A stretch of DNA of 26,672 bases from a virus. The stretch spans positions 1 to 26,672 of IMG/VR virus record IMGVR_UViG_3300017748_000112; one strand, written 5' to 3'. Under the pieces are notes generated by a model. The model saw only the letters and a program-made list of their open reading frames with translations, was not told the DNA's origin and did no database searches. A program made the translations under genes and the position numbers. Positions 18,966 through 26,672 of the stretch are shown one piece after another. Numbering within the stretch: position 1 is the first letter of the stretch; each line of letters opens with the position of its first letter.

Positions 18966-21900
18966 ATGCCAATAGAAGATTTTTTAGTAGATTTTTATTC
19001 TAAAAATGCTGATCAAGATATTGATCAAGTTAAAATTGACAGTATAGTGGACTACTATGGTGGAGACAACGTTTCTATGATAAATGATTTATATGAAAAA
19101 TATGATCCTGGAAATATAAACGATGATAAAGTTTTACAAATACAAGAATATTATTCACTTGATCTGCCTGAGCAAAAGCAAGTTATCAAAGAGTCTATTA
19201 CACAAGAAGAAGTTGTTGTAGATAAAGACAATACAATCAAAGACTCTTCAGTAATAAAAGATATTTCTTTAAGTGAGCCTACAAAAGAAGAAATAAAAAT
19301 AGACACCACTAAGAAAAGATTTGACAAAGGTTTGTTTAAAATGGCAGAAAGGCCTGCTTATGATAATTATATAAAAACTAAATCTTTAGATGTAAGCTTG
19401 TTGCCTAAAGAAAAAGAAGAAGAAGTTGGCTTTATACAAGATAAAATAGCTAGATTAGGTAGGGGTATAGCTAGCACAGCTAAAGGATTTGAGCAATTTA
19501 AAACATCTTTAGTTTTAACAGGAGCTGATATTGCTTTAGATGTTTTTAATCCTGAAATAACTACCGAGCAAAAAATACAAAGTTTAAAAGTGTTGAAAGG
19601 AGTTGAAGATGCTTCGTTAGGTGTTGAAACATACGATGCCATTATAAAAGGACTAGGCAACTATGTTAGAGAGTACGATTCTGAAAGCATTACTGATGAC
19701 ATAGCTAATGGTAATTATGCGCAGGCAGCTGATAGAGCTATTGGAGGGGTTTTTGAATCTGCTCCATCATTAGCGCTTGCTTATTTAGGTCCAGGTGGTT
19801 TAATAGCTTTAGGCACAAGCTCTGCTGGTAATAAGTTTGATGAAGAGTTTGAAGAAAACCCTGAAGAAGGAACTAAAACTATATTATTAAACTCTATATT
19901 AGCAGGAACAGCTGAAGCTAGTTTCGAGTTAGTCACTAGAGGAATATTGTCAAAAGCTAGATTGCTTAAAAATTCTGGAAATAATAAAGCTGCAAAAGAC
20001 TTAATAAGCAATTACTCTACAAATGTAATAAAAAGACTTGCAACTGATCCAGCTGCTGAAGGCTTATCTGAAGCTGCTACTGAATTTACAACTGACTTAA
20101 TAGATATAGCCACATTTGAAAAAGATGAATTACCTGATTTATTTACAGAAAAAAACATTAAAAAGTGGGCTGATGCTGGTATAATTGGAACTTTAACTGG
20201 TGGAGGCATAGTTACTACAGGAGCTTTAAAAAGTAGTGAACAATCAGTTAGAACAGCTGCTGAATACACGTTAACTCCAAATTCAGATAAGAAAATAATT
20301 AACGATGCGGCTTTAGAAATAAATAACTTAAATGAACAGATAAAGGAAGTTAATAACCAAGAAGATGTAGATATAATAGAAGCTCAAATAGCTAACGAAG
20401 AAAATAAAATAATAAACACTAAGAAAAAAGTTAGTGAGGAGTTAAACATGATGAATCCTGATGAGTTAAAAGCTTATGCTGATAATATAGATAAAATAAA
20501 TAAAGAAAAGAAAAGAGCACAGTCTAACTCTATTTTTGTAAGAAAAGCTAATGTACAGAATCTTGCTAATTTAGAACTAGAAAATCAAGCTTTAATAAGA
20601 GAGTCTGTAGATAGAAGATTAAATGAAAATATTAAAACAGTAGGTGTTAAAGATTTAGGTAGAACAGTTAATGATTATAACGCTAAAGAAGATTATCAAA
20701 AAGCTTACGACAACACGGAGTTTGGTAAGAAAAACTCTATGAACGTCACAAGTTCTGATGGTTTTATAGACACTGAAGGTGATATATATATTAATAAAGA
20801 AGTTGCACAAAAAGTAAGAAATGTCAACGTTCCTGCTCACGAGTTATTACATGGTATATTAGATAATAATATTAAAGAACCTGGTCAATTAAAAAGATTA
20901 GTAAATGAATTTAAAGCTATATTACCTATAGAAACAGCTAATTTAATTCAAAAAAGAATAGATGATAACTATAGGTTTACTACAGATGAGCGAGGTAACA
21001 GAGTTGAAAGACCAGAGTCTGAATACATGCAAGAATATTTTACAGCTTTTGCAGATTTAATTGGTAATAGAAAAGTTAAATTTAATGAAAATATATTTAC
21101 TAAAGTAGGTGAAAAAATAATACCTATATTTAAAGGTAAAGGATATGGACATATTAAATTTGAAACTGGTAAAGATGTTTACGACTTTATTAAAAGCTAT
21201 CAAAAACAAATATCTAAAGGTGAATTAGCACCTGAAACTATAGAAGCTGCTAAAAAAGTTGCTGATCAAGATGTTAAAACTGAGTTTTCTAAATCTGAAG
21301 TAACAGACTTGGCTAAACAATATAAAGCTGATCCTGCTAATACAGACGTAGAAGAATTAATAAAGCAATACGACAATGTAGCTTTAAAAGCTTTAGGTTA
21401 TGATATATCTAAAGGTACTATAGCTCCAGAAGAAGCTATATCATTTGTTAATAAAGAGTTTGATAGTATATTAAGAAGATATGACGGATCAACAGAGTTT
21501 TCTACTTGGATTAATTCTAATATAAGACCTAAACGTCAAGCTTTTTATGATGAACAAATAGGCAAAGAATCAGAGACTACTAGCATTGACTCAGAACAAG
21601 CTAGACAAGTTGTAGATGACTCAGAAACTACAACTGATGATAGAACTGAAAAAGAAATAAGACAAGCAGAGAGAAAGATTAAAGTAGCAAAAAGATTAAA
21701 CTTAGAAGAGAAAGCTATAAAAGAAGTTAGTGATAAAGTAAAAGATGTTGATTTATCAAAGGTTAATTATAAAACTCTTAAAAACTTAGCTAATGAAACT
21801 ATTGGTGAAGCATTTGGTATATCACCTAATAAAATACTAAGTAATGCTAATTTAACCAAAAGTGAAATAGCTAATGCTCAAAGATACATAAAGAATAATG

Positions 21901-24900
21901 TTGACTTATTAAAAGCTTTATTACCTGATGGCTATAATAAAGATTTTAAATCTACTGGTGTTCCTAAAGTATTACTTGATAAGTTTTACAACAAACGTAG
22001 TGTAAGAGCTAAAACAGGTGCTGGATTAAATGTGCAGATTAAAAAACCTAATATAGGTTCTAATGAGTTTTTAGAAGTGTTTGGGTTTGTAGATGGTAAA
22101 CCAACGAGAGATGATAGAAATATATCTGCTAGAATAATTGCTTTAGCTAATCAAACTGGTAAAGCTATAACTAATCAAACAGTTAGAGAGCAATTACAAA
22201 AAGAAGGTATGCCTGAATCTGCTTTGCAAGACATTAAAAGCGGTACACCAACTGCTATGTTTAGTTTATCTACTAAACCTATACAAAATCAATTAAATGA
22301 ATTAGCTTTATTAAGAGATAAAAAAGCTATAGCTAAAGTTTTAGGATTTAAATCTGAAGCTATAAATGAATCTACTAGACCAAAGCTTCAAGCGTTAATG
22401 CAAGAAGCTGCTAAATACTTAGACATGTCTATAGTTGCTGCTGGTATGATGGGTAGTGGTGGTAGGCAAACTTTTTATGGAGATTTTAAAGATGGAAAAT
22501 TTGTAAGAGATCCTAAAGCTAGTAAAAAGTGGATTAAAAGAACTAATGGTGAATACATTTTATTTGAGCAGAAAAAAGATGGAAAATTTACTAGAGTAAA
22601 TAAAAAACAAGTAGCAGAGTTTGATGATTATGTAGCTAAACCAGGTAGATTGTATTATAGTACAAAAGATCCTGCTTACAAAAAGCTAGTTGAAAATGTT
22701 GAAAAATCTCCATTTGAAGGCACTTTTAAACAAATAAAACTACCAAAAGACGGTAAAATAACAAAAAGTTTTTTAGATAACAAAAAGAAACAAAGTGATT
22801 TAAATATGGAAATTTTAGATCATGTTGTTAATAAACTTGCTCAAGCAGTTCAAGATGGAATGTCTATGGACGTAGCTGGTATGATTATAATACAAAGTTA
22901 TCAAGCGACTAGTGGTCTTATAAAAACAGCTGCGCCTTTTAAATATATGTCTGACGTTTTTGAGTACGGAGACAAGAAAGATGGTACAAAAAAATATAGA
23001 GAAGAGCATAATCCTCCAGCCTCTGTAATTGGCGCTAACTTGTTGTGGGCTATAAAAAATAATGCTGCTAAACCGATAATGAAAGAAGTTAGAAAAAACT
23101 TTCACCAAACAGTATTATCTAAAAAAGATGATTCAAAGTTAGATATAGACTACGCAGCGACTTTACCAAATGGAACTAATATAACTACAGATCCTATTAT
23201 AAGGATGGCAATGGCTGGTATTAATTTAAATACTATAAAAAATGTTGTAACCGGTAAATCTATAATAGAAGAATTTGGACTAGGTATAGATAATAAATTT
23301 AGTTCTATGCAAAATGTTTCAGCTTTTCAAAATAACCTAGTTGAACAAGTAATATTAGAAGATTTAGATATTAAAGAAGCTAAAAAGCAATTAGATCAAT
23401 ACTTAAAAATAGCACCAAGTCAACTAAAAGCTAGTAAAAGTACTAATAAAACTCTTAATGATTCTAAAGTTTTAAATGTAGAAGGTAATTTAAATATTCA
23501 AGATTTACTAAGTAAAGCTGCTAGTATAGATGAAGCTTTAAATATTGCTAGAGATGTCAATGCTCCTGTTAAAAAAATTAGAGTATTTGATTTTGATGAC
23601 ACGTTAGCTACTACTAAATCAGATGTTTTGTTCACAGCGCCTGATGGAACTGAAGGTAAATTAAATGCTGAAGAGTTCGCTAAACGAGGCAAAGAGCTTT
23701 TAGATGAAGGCTATGTGTTTGACTTTTCTGAATTTAATAAAGTAACTAAAGGTAAACCTGGTCCATTGTTAGAAGTAGCTAAAAAAATACAAGCAGCAAG
23801 AGGGACAGAAGATGTATTTGTTTTAACAGCTAGAGCACCTGAAGCTCAAGTAGCTATTAAAGAATTTTTAGATGGTGTAGGATTAAATATACCATTAGAA
23901 AATATAACTGGTTTAGGCAACTCTACAGGTGAAGCTAAAGCTAATTGGATGGTAGATAAAGCAGCGGAAGGCTACAACGACTTTTACTTTGCTGATGATG
24001 CTTATCAAAATGTTAAGGCAGTTAAAGACGTAATGTCTGTGATCGATGTTAAGTCTAAAGTTCAACAAGCTAAATTCTCTTTGTCAAAAGATTTAAACTC
24101 TGACTTTAATAAAATACTAGAAAACAAATCTGGTATTGGTGCGGAAAAAGTTTATTCAGATGCTAGAGCTAAAACAGTTGGAGCTAGTAAAGGTAAGTTT
24201 AAATTCTTTATTCCACCATCAGCTGAAGACTTTGTAGGTTTATTATATCCAACATTAGCTAAAGGTAAACTAGGTGACGATCAAATGGCTTGGTATAAAG
24301 AAAGATTATTAAATCCTTTTGCAAGAGCTTATGAGAACTTATCAAGAGATAGAGTTAATTTGATGAATGATTTTAAAGCTCTTAAAAAAGAACTAGAAGT
24401 ACCTAAAGATTTACGTAAAGAAGCTATTGATGGTTTTACAAACGAACAAGCTGTAAGAGTTTACTTATGGAACAAACAAGGTTTAGAAATACCTGGTATA
24501 TCCAAAAGAGATTTAAAAGATTTAACTGAAGTTATTGATAAAAATCCTAAACTAAAAGTATTTGCAGATCAATTACAAGCTATAAATAAATCAGATGGTT
24601 ATCCAGTGCCGCAAGAATCTTGGTTAGTTGGTACAATAACAACTGATCTAATAAACGGTTTAAACACTGTTAAGCGTGCTAAGTATTTAGAAGAATGGCA
24701 GACAAATGCTGATATAATATTTTCTAAAGAAAATTTAAATAAGATGGAGGCTATATATGGGCCTAAGTATAGAGAAGCTTTGCAAAATGTATTATCAAGA
24801 ATGAAGACTGGTAAAAACAGATTATTCAGCGAAAGCAGAATAGGTAACCAAGTATTAGATTATATTAATGGATCTATTGGAGCTATAATGTTCTTTAACA

Positions 24901-26258
24901 CTAGATCAGCTGTACTTCAAACAATATCTTCTATAAACTTTATTAACTGGAGTGATAATAATATTTACAAAGCTGGTAAAGCATTTGCTAATCAACCTCA
25001 ATACTGGAAAGATTTTACAAAATTAATGAACTCAGACTTTTTAAAAGATAGAAGACAAGGTTTAAAACTTAATATATCTGAGTCTGAAATAGCTGATGCT
25101 GCAGCTACAAGTAAGAACAAGGCTAAAGCTGCTTTAAACTACTTACTTCAAAAAGGATTTTTACCTACTCAAATAGCTGATAGCTTCGCTATTGCTTCAG
25201 GTGGTGCTACTTATTATAGAAATAGAATAAATGTTTCATTAAAAGAAGGCATGTCTCAAAAAGAAGCTGAAGAAAAAGCTTTTAGAGATTTTAGAGAGAT
25301 AGCTGAAGAGTCTCAACAATCAAGTAGACCTGATAGAATATCACAGCAACAAGCAAGTAACGTTGGTAGAGTTATATTAGCATTTGCTAACACACCTTCT
25401 CAATACGCTAGAATAATAAAGAAAGCTGCTAGTGATCTTAAAAACAAAAGAGGTGATTGGAAAAACAATGTATCTAAAATAATATATTATGGAGCTATGC
25501 AAAACCTTGTATTCAATGTACTTCAACAAGCTTTATTTGCTGTAGGCTTTGGAGATGACGATGAGGAGACAGAAAAAAGAGAAAAGAAATATGTTGGTAT
25601 AGCTAATGGTATGGTTGACTCATTGCTCAGGGGATTAGGTTATGGTGGAGCTGCAGTGTCAGTTGCTAAAAACTTACTTCTTGATGTTTACGAAAGATCA
25701 AAAAGAAAAAGACCTGAATATGTTGACTCTGCTTGGAAGTTATTAGATTTTTCTCCACCAATAGACTCTAAAGTTTCTAAATTAAAAGCTGCTGGATATA
25801 TGGTAGACAAATATGGAGACGATATGGTTGAAAAAGGATTTGCTATAGATAATCCAGCTTACGAAGCTGGTTCAAAAGTCGTTTCTGCAACAACTAACAT
25901 ACCTTTAGATAGGCTATTTACTAAAGCAAACAATATAGCTGGAGCTATGGGAGAAGACGCAGAGACATGGCAAAGAGTTGCTATGATGTTAGGTTGGCCA
26001 GAGTGGCAAATAAAAGACAAGAAAAAAATTGTTAAAGCTCCTAAAACAAAAGAAGAAAAAATAAAAATTAAAGAAGAAAGATCTAAAACTAGAGTTAAAG
26101 AAGCTAAAGGTTCTACAGATTATAAAACATTAAAAAAGCTTAATAGGTCTGAACAAATTCAAATGCTAAAAGATTTAGGTTACCCTAGAATGAGAATTAA
26201 AAAGCTAAAAAAAGAATCAGATTTAATAGAAGAAATAATAGAAATGAATAAAAAATAA
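18966..26258 (+). CDS. Giant polyvalent virion protein: HExxH peptidase, HAD phosphatase, membrane-prone C-terminal domain
   Basis: At 2430 residues this is the largest protein here and probably ejected into the host. In order: two short repeats with D..YYGG/EYY motifs (residues 1-65); Gly/Ala-rich hydrophobic segments (about 266-287 and 402-420); a zincin-like site H625-E-L-L-H629 with a possible third ligand E690; a weakly sigma-region-2-like helical segment (about 770-865); an unassigned region with GSGGRQTFYG (about 1163) and EEHNPPAS (1346-1353); a HAD phosphatase with D1542/D1544, T1621, K1658 and D1677/D1678; a large helical domain (about 1740-2300) with NTRSAVLQTISSIN, FLPTQIADSFAIASGG and hydrophobic 2175-2196; and a C-terminal SAP/HeH-like tail (2392-2430). 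I associate the HAD and C-terminal blocks with phage large polyvalent proteins. All HAD motifs are intact. No lytic transglycosylase was recognised. Confidence 0.85.
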   Translation: MPIEDFLVDFYSKNADQDIDQVKIDSIVDYYGGDNVSMINDLYEKYDPGNINDDKVLQIQEYYSLDLPEQKQVIKESITQEEVVVDKDNTIKDSSVIKDISLSEPTKEEIKIDTTKKRFDKGLFKMAERPAYDNYIKTKSLDVSLLPKEKEEEVGFIQDKIARLGRGIASTAKGFEQFKTSLVLTGADIALDVFNPEITTEQKIQSLKVLKGVEDASLGVETYDAIIKGLGNYVREYDSESITDDIANGNYAQAADRAIGGVFESAPSLALAYLGPGGLIALGTSSAGNKFDEEFEENPEEGTKTILLNSILAGTAEASFELVTRGILSKARLLKNSGNNKAAKDLISNYSTNVIKRLATDPAAEGLSEAATEFTTDLIDIATFEKDELPDLFTEKNIKKWADAGIIGTLTGGGIVTTGALKSSEQSVRTAAEYTLTPNSDKKIINDAALEINNLNEQIKEVNNQEDVDIIEAQIANEENKIINTKKKVSEELNMMNPDELKAYADNIDKINKEKKRAQSNSIFVRKANVQNLANLELENQALIRESVDRRLNENIKTVGVKDLGRTVNDYNAKEDYQKAYDNTEFGKKNSMNVTSSDGFIDTEGDIYINKEVAQKVRNVNVPAHELLHGILDNNIKEPGQLKRLVNEFKAILPIETANLIQKRIDDNYRFTTDERGNRVERPESEYMQEYFTAFADLIGNRKVKFNENIFTKVGEKIIPIFKGKGYGHIKFETGKDVYDFIKSYQKQISKGELAPETIEAAKKVADQDVKTEFSKSEVTDLAKQYKADPANTDVEELIKQYDNVALKALGYDISKGTIAPEEAISFVNKEFDSILRRYDGSTEFSTWINSNIRPKRQAFYDEQIGKESETTSIDSEQARQVVDDSETTTDDRTEKEIRQAERKIKVAKRLNLEEKAIKEVSDKVKDVDLSKVNYKTLKNLANETIGEAFGISPNKILSNANLTKSEIANAQRYIKNNVDLLKALLPDGYNKDFKSTGVPKVLLDKFYNKRSVRAKTGAGLNVQIKKPNIGSNEFLEVFGFVDGKPTRDDRNISARIIALANQTGKAITNQTVREQLQKEGMPESALQDIKSGTPTAMFSLSTKPIQNQLNELALLRDKKAIAKVLGFKSEAINESTRPKLQALMQEAAKYLDMSIVAAGMMGSGGRQTFYGDFKDGKFVRDPKASKKWIKRTNGEYILFEQKKDGKFTRVNKKQVAEFDDYVAKPGRLYYSTKDPAYKKLVENVEKSPFEGTFKQIKLPKDGKITKSFLDNKKKQSDLNMEILDHVVNKLAQAVQDGMSMDVAGMIIIQSYQATSGLIKTAAPFKYMSDVFEYGDKKDGTKKYREEHNPPASVIGANLLWAIKNNAAKPIMKEVRKNFHQTVLSKKDDSKLDIDYAATLPNGTNITTDPIIRMAMAGINLNTIKNVVTGKSIIEEFGLGIDNKFSSMQNVSAFQNNLVEQVILEDLDIKEAKKQLDQYLKIAPSQLKASKSTNKTLNDSKVLNVEGNLNIQDLLSKAASIDEALNIARDVNAPVKKIRVFDFDDTLATTKSDVLFTAPDGTEGKLNAEEFAKRGKELLDEGYVFDFSEFNKVTKGKPGPLLEVAKKIQAARGTEDVFVLTARAPEAQVAIKEFLDGVGLNIPLENITGLGNSTGEAKANWMVDKAAEGYNDFYFADDAYQNVKAVKDVMSVIDVKSKVQQAKFSLSKDLNSDFNKILENKSGIGAEKVYSDARAKTVGASKGKFKFFIPPSAEDFVGLLYPTLAKGKLGDDQMAWYKERLLNPFARAYENLSRDRVNLMNDFKALKKELEVPKDLRKEAIDGFTNEQAVRVYLWNKQGLEIPGISKRDLKDLTEVIDKNPKLKVFADQLQAINKSDGYPVPQESWLVGTITTDLINGLNTVKRAKYLEEWQTNADIIFSKENLNKMEAIYGPKYREALQNVLSRMKTGKNRLFSESRIGNQVLDYINGSIGAIMFFNTRSAVLQTISSINFINWSDNNIYKAGKAFANQPQYWKDFTKLMNSDFLKDRRQGLKLNISESEIADAAATSKNKAKAALNYLLQKGFLPTQIADSFAIASGGATYYRNRINVSLKEGMSQKEAEEKAFRDFREIAEESQQSSRPDRISQQQASNVGRVILAFANTPSQYARIIKKAASDLKNKRGDWKNNVSKIIYYGAMQNLVFNVLQQALFAVGFGDDDEETEKREKKYVGIANGMVDSLLRGLGYGGAAVSVAKNLLLDVYERSKRKRPEYVDSAWKLLDFSPPIDSKVSKLKAAGYMVDKYGDDMVEKGFAIDNPAYEAGSKVVSATTNIPLDRLFTKANNIAGAMGEDAETWQRVAMMLGWPEWQIKDKKKIVKAPKTKEEKIKIKEERSKTRVKEAKGSTDYKTLKKLNRSEQIQMLKDLGYPRMRIKKLKKESDLIEEIIEMNKK

Positions 26259-26296
26259 GGAACAATAAAATACTGGGCGCCATACCCAAAGTTCCT
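26258..26296 (+). other. Nested inverted repeat downstream of the giant gene
   Basis: AGGAAC (26258-26263) pairs with GTTCCT (26291-26296), and inside it TGGG (26274-26277) pairs with CCCA (26285-26288), with an asymmetric internal loop. It lacks a T-run, so it is not a terminator on its own. It lies just upstream of the terminator hairpin and could protect the transcript 3' end or be a small structured RNA. Function is unproven. Confidence 0.45.
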
Positions 26297-26303
26297 GTAA
26301 CCA

Positions 26304-26336
26304 AAAAAGGGGAGGTCATTACGACTTCCCCTTTTT
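26304..26336. terminator. Bidirectional terminator between convergent gene sets
   Basis: GGGGAGGTC (26309-26317) pairs with GACTTCCCC (26323-26331), one G-T wobble, around loop ATTAC. The stem is flanked by an A-run (26304-26308) and a T-run (26332-26336) that extend it. The T-run serves plus-strand transcripts from the structural operon and the A-run becomes a U-run for the minus-strand genes, whose last stop codon lies four bases away. Confidence 0.9.
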
Positions 26337-26340
26337 ATAT

Positions 26341-26382
26341 TTAACACCATGGGCAAAATCCACCCGGACAGTTTTCACACAT
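26341..26382 (-). CDS. Putative four-cysteine micropeptide (13 residues)
   Basis: On the minus strand an ATG at 26382-26380 opens a 13-residue reading frame, MCENCPGGFCPWC, ending in TAA. The four cysteines form CxxC-x4-CxxC, a possible metal-binding or redox micro-motif. The start context AAAATTATG matches the AATTATG leader seen before several structural genes here, and the stop is four bases from the terminator, so it would be the last gene of the minus-strand transcript. It is too short for statistical gene calling and may be chance; a host- or metal-related role is speculation. Confidence 0.4.
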   Translation of the reverse strand: MCENCPGGFCPWC

Positions 26383-26392
26383 AATTTTAATT

Positions 26393-26548
26393 TTAGAATC
26401 TATAAGTAATACCAAAAGCAAATATAAAACCTCCACTAACTATAGCTAAAGTGTTAGGATTTAAATTGATTTTTTGTTTATGTAGTATCATATTGCCAGC
26501 TGCAAAGCTAGCTAGGCTTATACCACCTATTATTGCTAATTTTCTCAT
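26393..26548 (-). CDS. Small membrane protein with two predicted helices (possible holin-like)
   Basis: A 51-residue minus-strand gene: MRKLAIIGGISLASFAAGNM forms a basic start and a first membrane helix (about residues 4-21). A short polar loop (HKQKINLNPN) follows, then a second helix (about 33-49, with VSGGFIFAFGI). ATG at 26548-26546 overlaps the TGA of the upstream membrane gene in ATGA, which supports both as a translationally coupled pair. AAAAGG lies right before the start. Size, two helices and position next to the late structural operon would suit a holin or another lysis or envelope-acting protein, but no holin family signature was recognised and there is no endolysin in the window to support it. 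Confidence 0.6.
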   Translation of the reverse strand: MRKLAIIGGISLASFAAGNMILHKQKINLNPNTLAIVSGGFIFAFGITYRF

Positions 26549-26672
26549 CCTTTTATTTTTATTATAAGATAAACGTTTGAAAACATTATACTTATTAAAA
26601 CAATAGCTGCATATATTATAGCGTCGCTTAAATAAGGTTTAACTGCTAAAGTAAAACCGCACAGCGTAACCA
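26545..26672 (-). CDS. Membrane protein, C-terminal fragment running off the window
   Basis: The minus-strand frame is open from the window edge (first full codon 26670-26668) to TGA at 26547-26545, giving 41 residues here. VTLCGFTLAVKPYL is moderately hydrophobic, and DAIIYAAIVLISIMFSNVYL is a clear membrane helix, followed by a basic end (IIKIKG). The first two window bases on this strand read TG, so a start could lie exactly at the edge, or the gene could extend further. It overlaps the 51-residue gene by ATGA. A role with its neighbour at the membrane is likely; no family is recognised. Confidence 0.5.
   Translation of the reverse strand, partial: VTLCGFTLAVKPYLSDAIIYAAIVLISIMFSNVYLIIKIKG

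Follow-up and report, generated by a model that had tools for sequence, protein, structure and literature searches.

Zinc knuckles and zinc ribbons are built on CxxC...CxxC tetrathiolate or CCHC sites, and the ribbons are domains with long linkers. CPYC is the classic glutaredoxin motif. The thioredoxin of phage T4 is a folded thioredoxin and not a 13-residue peptide. Cysteine-responsive short leader ORFs of mycobacteria are rich in Cys codons and precede the genes that they regulate. According to the portion of PMC6459318 drawn on here, T4 thioredoxin serves the phage NrdAB, and the NrdJ of a Thermus phage works with host thioredoxin, such phages encoding no redoxin. Among synthetic peptides, the [4Fe-4S] ferredoxin maquettes are 16-mers with a CxxCxxC spacing that is described as immutable in an excerpt of PMC10946529.

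The window, the whole 26,672-nt stretch of viral DNA analysed (IMG/VR record IMGVR_UViG_3300017748_000112), carries a much smaller four-cysteine product. The first-pass annotation had pointed to a 13-residue peptide with CxxC-x4-CxxC beside a terminator, and the ORF is present as described (Table 1): its codons (ATG TGT GAA AAC TGT CCG GGT GGA TTT TGC CCA TGG TGT TAA) specify MCENCPGGFCPWC, and four nucleotides (26340-26337) separate the stop codon from the first paired base of the hairpin. The AATTATG start context, said to be that of the structural genes, does precede four of the 12 structural-region ORFs (those of the capsid and of the 89-aa, 1332-aa and 313-aa products), but all 12 start in A/T-rich sequence, so this context is typical and weak as evidence. 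ORFs of at most 30 aa that fit C..C.{3,4}C..C occur once in the window and in none of 200 first-order Markov windows.

Table 1. Features of the window around the micropeptide ORF, with the relatives in which a tRNA gene intervenes
Feature	Coordinates	Strand	Description
Convergent late operon, final gene (2430-aa product)	18966..26258	+	ORF reading
Conserved noncoding element GGAACA-(A-rich)-CTGGGCRCCATACCCAAAGTTCCTGTAACC	26259..26302	+	44 nt, immediately follows the convergent late gene's stop codon
Hairpin with A/T tracts, terminator-like on both strands	26303..26336	.	34 nt; T run on either strand
Micropeptide ORF, MCENCPGGFCPWC	26341..26382	-	42 nt with stop, 13 codons
51-aa small membrane-like protein (MRKLAIIGGISLAS...FAFGITYRF)	26393..26548	-	Gene preceding the micropeptide
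Small hydrophobic protein gene, 3' end, clipped by the contig end	26545..26672	-	~86 aa in relatives
tRNA gene between micropeptide and terminator			L014, L017, L019, L029, L031, L032, L036, L056, L071, L072, L078, L098, L109

The exact peptide, searched as a degenerate back-translation (36-base pattern, without codon preference), was found in eight IMG/VR contigs; all eight have ATG before it, TAA after it and the hairpin behind, and one of them (L004) has a different upstream gene. With the noncoding element as bait, at least 118 stretches were recovered, including these eight contigs, and a micropeptide of 11-16 aa lies within 800 nt in 76 of the 119 element loci (the window and the 118 stretches listed). 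A locus was counted when an ORF of 9-22 codons fitting C..C.{3,4}C.{1,2}[CY] lay no more than 800 nt from the element, and 357 control readings (reverse complement, reverse and complement of each region) gave no such ORF. Products of 11, 12, 13, 14, 15 and 16 aa occur in 1, 21, 25, 2, 21 and 6 of the 76 loci, respectively. Their spacing is nearly always CxxC-x3/4-CxxC, and the usual form is M-C-x2-C-x3/4-C-x2-C with up to three further residues and sometimes a second Met.

Patterns that do not involve the element were also used. MCxxCxGGxCx-x-C retrieved 54 stretches, 51 of them already known and three new, the latter also with the element, and a pattern for the 12-aa form retrieved 56 stretches as against two for its reversed version. 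A broad pattern matched 41 of 50 records, many of which had been picked for holding the peptide, and its reversal matched none; in one of the 50 there was a second broad-pattern match, with an in-frame stop. A regular expression that required the cysteines collected 47 different peptide strings with the Cys4 frame, a set that takes in one Halobacillus ORF and two strings with Shine-Dalgarno starts, perhaps unrelated. Peptides of the type MCEYCGGGCGGC/RGC in L209, L217 and L225, with a Shine-Dalgarno-like AGGAGG ahead, may be unrelated or due to chance, and the L218 stretch ends early. The pattern scan of genome contigs returned eight stretches: two, from one Flavobacteriaceae MAG, have NrdJ and the element; five open into longer ORFs; and the 13-aa Halobacillus ORF is probably a chance match.

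Named phages gave little. Megablast of positions 20000-26672 of the window against them found no match, blastn of the junction found weak partial matches (at most 27% query cover among the best 20 of 111), and no such 11-16-mer was present in the three named relatives scanned (Panino, MW202828 and elemoF). MW202828 does encode, at 416-517 (L247), a 33-aa protein with two CxxC pairs at its early/late junction, deposited as 'A2l zinc ribbon domain'; its Pfam match is weak and below cut-off (TiaS zinc ribbon, E 0.049), so that kinship with the micropeptide is no more than a speculation. Among its tRNAs, Panino carries a Cys-rich ORF, also of 33 aa, of another pattern.

Codon-level comparison drew on 112 element loci (110 recovered with the element as sole bait, and L001 and L002, first recovered with the peptide), in which 66 ORFs, 48 of them unique, fit the alignment regular expression. 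Taken together, the two spacing classes (26 and 16 unique cores) have eight Cys columns; these contain Cys in 167 of their 168 cells and Tyr in the remaining one, a near-total conservation that is partly conditioned because the expression allowed only Cys or Tyr there. Cys codons kept with synonymous changes had been proposed as a check on the peptide in related phages, and the third position of these codons does switch between TGT and TGC at seven of the eight columns. Codons for the other residues vary at all three positions, and pN/pS is 0.48 and 0.47. An ORF without coding function might instead be carried along by selection on the hairpin, the element or the DNA as such, and hairpin and element are indeed conserved far more strongly as DNA than the ORF is, the element having served as the search bait. 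Conservation in the ORF, however, follows codons and not bases, the peptide is also found without the element, and neither the control readings nor the Markov windows yielded one hit. This codon pattern leaves a non-coding origin very improbable, the least probable of the readings weighed here. A chance ORF was rejected on the same two controls together with the reversed-pattern comparison; conservation beyond the window settles that the ORF is not an accident. It is, by its pattern of substitutions, a conserved and selected micropeptide gene, and we are highly confident that it is a functional coding one.

The gene is not universal. No micropeptide lies within 800 nt in 43 of the 119 element loci; 13 of the 43 have less than 300 nt of upstream sequence, and in one of these (L080) a cut micropeptide is visible, while in L114 and in the records of L053 and L070 it is farther off than 800 nt. 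Of 11 loci read for decayed copies, three hold variants and eight lack the peptide, with no decayed remnant visible in those eight. Among the 76 peptide loci we noticed a change of the last Cys to Tyr (L099) and altered spacing (L041, L071). The first-pass annotation had held that related phages keeping the hairpin and membrane gene while losing the peptide would speak against it. Such phages exist: in L057 and L064 the membrane gene is joined directly to the hairpin. The loss is a clean absence, and, with 43 element loci lacking a peptide in range, it indicates that the gene is dispensable in some phages. The remark that micropeptides of this size are invisible to gene callers is too strong, since the GMSC catalogue, by the part of PMC11364881 consulted, called ORFs from 30 nt, and members of the Cys4 family may therefore sit there unnamed.

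In relatives of the window the micropeptide stands mostly just before the terminator. Its stop codon is 8-23 nt from the GGG of the terminator hairpin in 63 of the 76 loci (8-11 nt in 62 of these), and the remaining 13 have a gene for tRNA-Ala or tRNA-Arg, identified with ARAGORN, between peptide and terminator (Table 1). The junction site can also hold other small genes in place of the micropeptide. Four Cys codons ending so near a hairpin recall a cysteine-sensing leader ORF, in which the position of the ribosome on the Cys codons would set the folding of the adjacent terminator. In the window, however, no same-strand gene follows the terminator, the next gene being convergent. Other last genes also end near the same hairpin (4-9 nt in eight of 18 non-peptide loci measured), tRNA genes intervene in the 13 loci just mentioned, copies in the late operon are for the most part closely followed by a gene instead, and the non-Cys residues are constrained as well. 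An attenuator leader was rejected on these grounds, and the first three of them make a leader-peptide role highly unlikely.

Hairpin and element were folded as single structures. On the plus strand the element forms nested stems, GGAAC/GTTCC and TGGG/CCCA, and it is highly conserved, with at least 118 IMG/VR stretches recovered. No Rfam family matched it at gathering score; the best match below that score, MicX (28.4 bits against a threshold of 75, E 1e-4), was taken as chance. The element may be a 3'-end RNA structure or a recombination anchor. In L224 a variant of it also stands behind a late-operon micropeptide. The 51-aa membrane-like protein had no match in Pfam or PHROG, and in relatives nrdJ precedes the small hydrophobic gene.

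In the best 20 of 77 matches, the capsid protein of the window shares 39-47% identity with its counterparts in Flavobacterium elemo phages, Maribacter phage Panino and MW202828. The phages belong to the podoviruses and have Flavobacterium, Cellulophaga and Maribacter phages as relatives. In one Flavobacteriaceae MAG, two contigs contain NrdJ together with the peptide and the element. Because of this and of the capsid kinship, a marine member of the Bacteroidota is the probable host. The protein encoded upstream, of 620 aa, is a class II ribonucleotide reductase, NrdJ (PHROG 367, E 3.8e-130; Pfam RNR-II insertion domain), and the micropeptide follows it at the end of the operon, with a gap of 17 nt in several loci and with one or two small genes between elsewhere. 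In most loci the NrdJ product ends in ...ACxxxxCE. We searched 50 of the 118 records, many of them fragments (43 with the peptide and seven without it by the 800-nt criterion), and found NrdJ in 43. Thioredoxin (PF00085) and glutaredoxin (PF00462) were each found in none of these 50, often fragmentary, records; each family was detected in 13 of 14 control genomes.

The micropeptide also occurs in a second setting. Thirty-five new stretches came from the 12-aa-form pattern: seven are nrdJ and/or element loci, one ends early and 27 are others. Fifteen of the 27 stand alone, including three in contigs with a Shine-Dalgarno start that are perhaps unrelated, and at the remaining 12 selection is unassignable because a signal-peptide ORF overlaps in another frame. 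Apparent overprinting with the signal-peptide-like start of a longer gene (CVLF...) was seen in L203, L204, L207, L208, L213, L220-L222, L226, L230, L235 and L237. A search for capsid and NrdJ covered L038, L111 and 30 of the 35 stretches; of these 32 records, 16 have a window-type capsid, at 54-71% identity, and three have NrdJ. A search of 26 records for class I NrdA found it in 11, all without an NrdJ match and nine of them with the peptide; neither enzyme turned up in L216 (60.5 kb) and L215 (44.6 kb), two records that do carry the peptide. In L223, L224, L038 and L111, class I NrdA takes the place that class II NrdJ has in others, near the early/late junction. In several phages of this group a peptidase gene follows closely on the late-operon copy of the peptide; of its products, the one from L205 was scanned and is a Peptidase_M15_3 (E 3.1e-13). 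Since it occurs in the late operon of phages in which no NrdJ was found, the micropeptide gene is a unit of its own.

These two settings bear on the main rival to metal binding, in which the peptide would be a minimal thiol-redox partner whose CxxC pairs pass electrons to the C-terminal Cys pair of the ribonucleotide reductase. The gene order beside nrdJ and the missing redoxins make this attractive, as do the reductase tail with its two cysteines, the class I enzyme in the nine peptide-bearing records without an NrdJ match, and one subgroup of peptides with CPYC. Still, among 80 NrdJ loci taken from viral contigs, of which 10 have less than 600 nt of downstream sequence, only nine show the peptide inside that distance, all nine with the element, so that a general companion of NrdJ was rejected; L131, L136 and L146 have NrdJ and the element and lack the peptide. 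L216 and L215 have the peptide without either reductase, CPYC is missing from most peptide types, and one pair would be enough for redox chemistry, yet four cysteines are kept. The use of host thioredoxin by a Thermus phage NrdJ, as reported in the portion of PMC6459318 cited above, also means that the absence of a phage redoxin leaves no gap to fill. We consider a redox role unlikely, though it is the strongest competitor.

The gene was followed on a tree built from the last 240 residues of 123 NrdJ rows (bootstrap not fully settled). Presence of the peptide requires nine changes as against 38 in shuffles (55 rows with it and 59 without; nine short rows left out), and peptide types require 32 changes for six labels, where the minimum is five and the shuffled mean 59. 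By these counts the gene clusters in one part of the tree and its types swap among close relatives, which would be explained most simply by recombination between shared flanks. Interchange of a few discrete types (CPWC, CEYC, 12-mers) between close NrdJ backgrounds, patchy presence even within a clade, and a site that may hold other small genes or add a tRNA gene could alternatively reflect host-specific or counter-defence selection on a peptide that binds a host target (a defence, RNA polymerase or another protein), with metal perhaps only shaping it. No host target is known, however, 12 residues offer little surface, pN/pS is below 1, and recombination at the flanks could swap types unaided. 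We judge host-target binding improbable, to about the same degree as the redox role.

The reading that we prefer is metal binding. The first-pass annotation had suggested binding of one zinc or iron ion, or thiol exchange, and either would be compatible with the sequence. The peptide would be made as written, without a precursor, as a free-standing Cys4 knuckle in which a short turn, usually with Gly (GGF, GGI, NGY, GGL), would join the two CxxC pairs round one metal ion, most likely Zn2+ or Fe2+. In infection, the metal-peptide would then bind a protein of phage or host or donate its metal to one. A tetrathiolate site appears to suit the peptide better than a single redox pair because four cysteines are kept in two CxxC pairs, and a single Zn2+ or Fe2+ would suit because the spacing departs from the [4Fe-4S] maquette pattern (PMC10946529, in the part seen). 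From sequence comparison, we give an even chance that the micropeptide is genuine and binds a single metal ion through its two CxxC pairs, and slightly less than that to metal binding as its main mode. More tentatively, the whole family of precursor-free, 11-16-residue Cys4 peptides may fold round one metal ion, as a minimal metalloprotein of marine Bacteroidota phages and possibly a thiol or metal partner of the phage reductase.

At the level of codons, the locus makes the case that selection acts on a phage gene of 11-16 residues, shorter than those that most annotation considers. It also points to a variable site where the early and late regions meet in these marine phages, a poorly known group. 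Natural peptides such as MCENCPGGFCPWC, MCGLCLGGICEYCNS and MCPYCNGYCGSC are small enough to synthesise and assay for metal binding or redox activity. If the metal-binding reading is true, the family would rank with the smallest metalloproteins in nature, and its gene with the smallest conserved genes for proteins. A limited literature search found no earlier description of such a Cys4 micropeptide family. The phage small-protein catalogues and reviews likewise deal with conserved tiny ORFs, and no such peptide was met in the partial texts, as distinct from the catalogue entries, of PMC11364881 and PMC11323111.

Several described systems resemble the micropeptide in one respect and differ in another. 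Mycobacterial cysteine leader ORFs are similarly short and rich in Cys codons; the window micropeptide has no same-strand gene after it. T4 thioredoxin, a phage thiol protein serving a phage ribonucleotide reductase (PMC6459318, in part), has the role that the redox rival would assign to the peptide, and length alone separates the peptide from the thioredoxin fold (13 aa, where the profiles have 103 and 60 positions). The [4Fe-4S] maquettes are alike in size and, according to the excerpt of PMC10946529, demonstrate that a four-Cys peptide can hold a metal cluster by itself; assignment to them was rejected on spacing, which is CxxCx4CxxC in the window and CxxC-x3/4-CxxC in the family in place of CxxCxxC. 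Zinc ribbons and rubredoxin-type sites share the two CxxC pairs, present in the window peptide and, as conditioned by the regular expression, in the family; their long linker and beta-ribbon domain are absent, the linker being four residues in the window. With zinc knuckles and ribbons the micropeptide has in common two CxxC pairs, a short chain and a Gly turn between them, and it differs from them in that 11-16 residues are the whole product, all four candidate ligands are Cys and the linker spans three to four residues.
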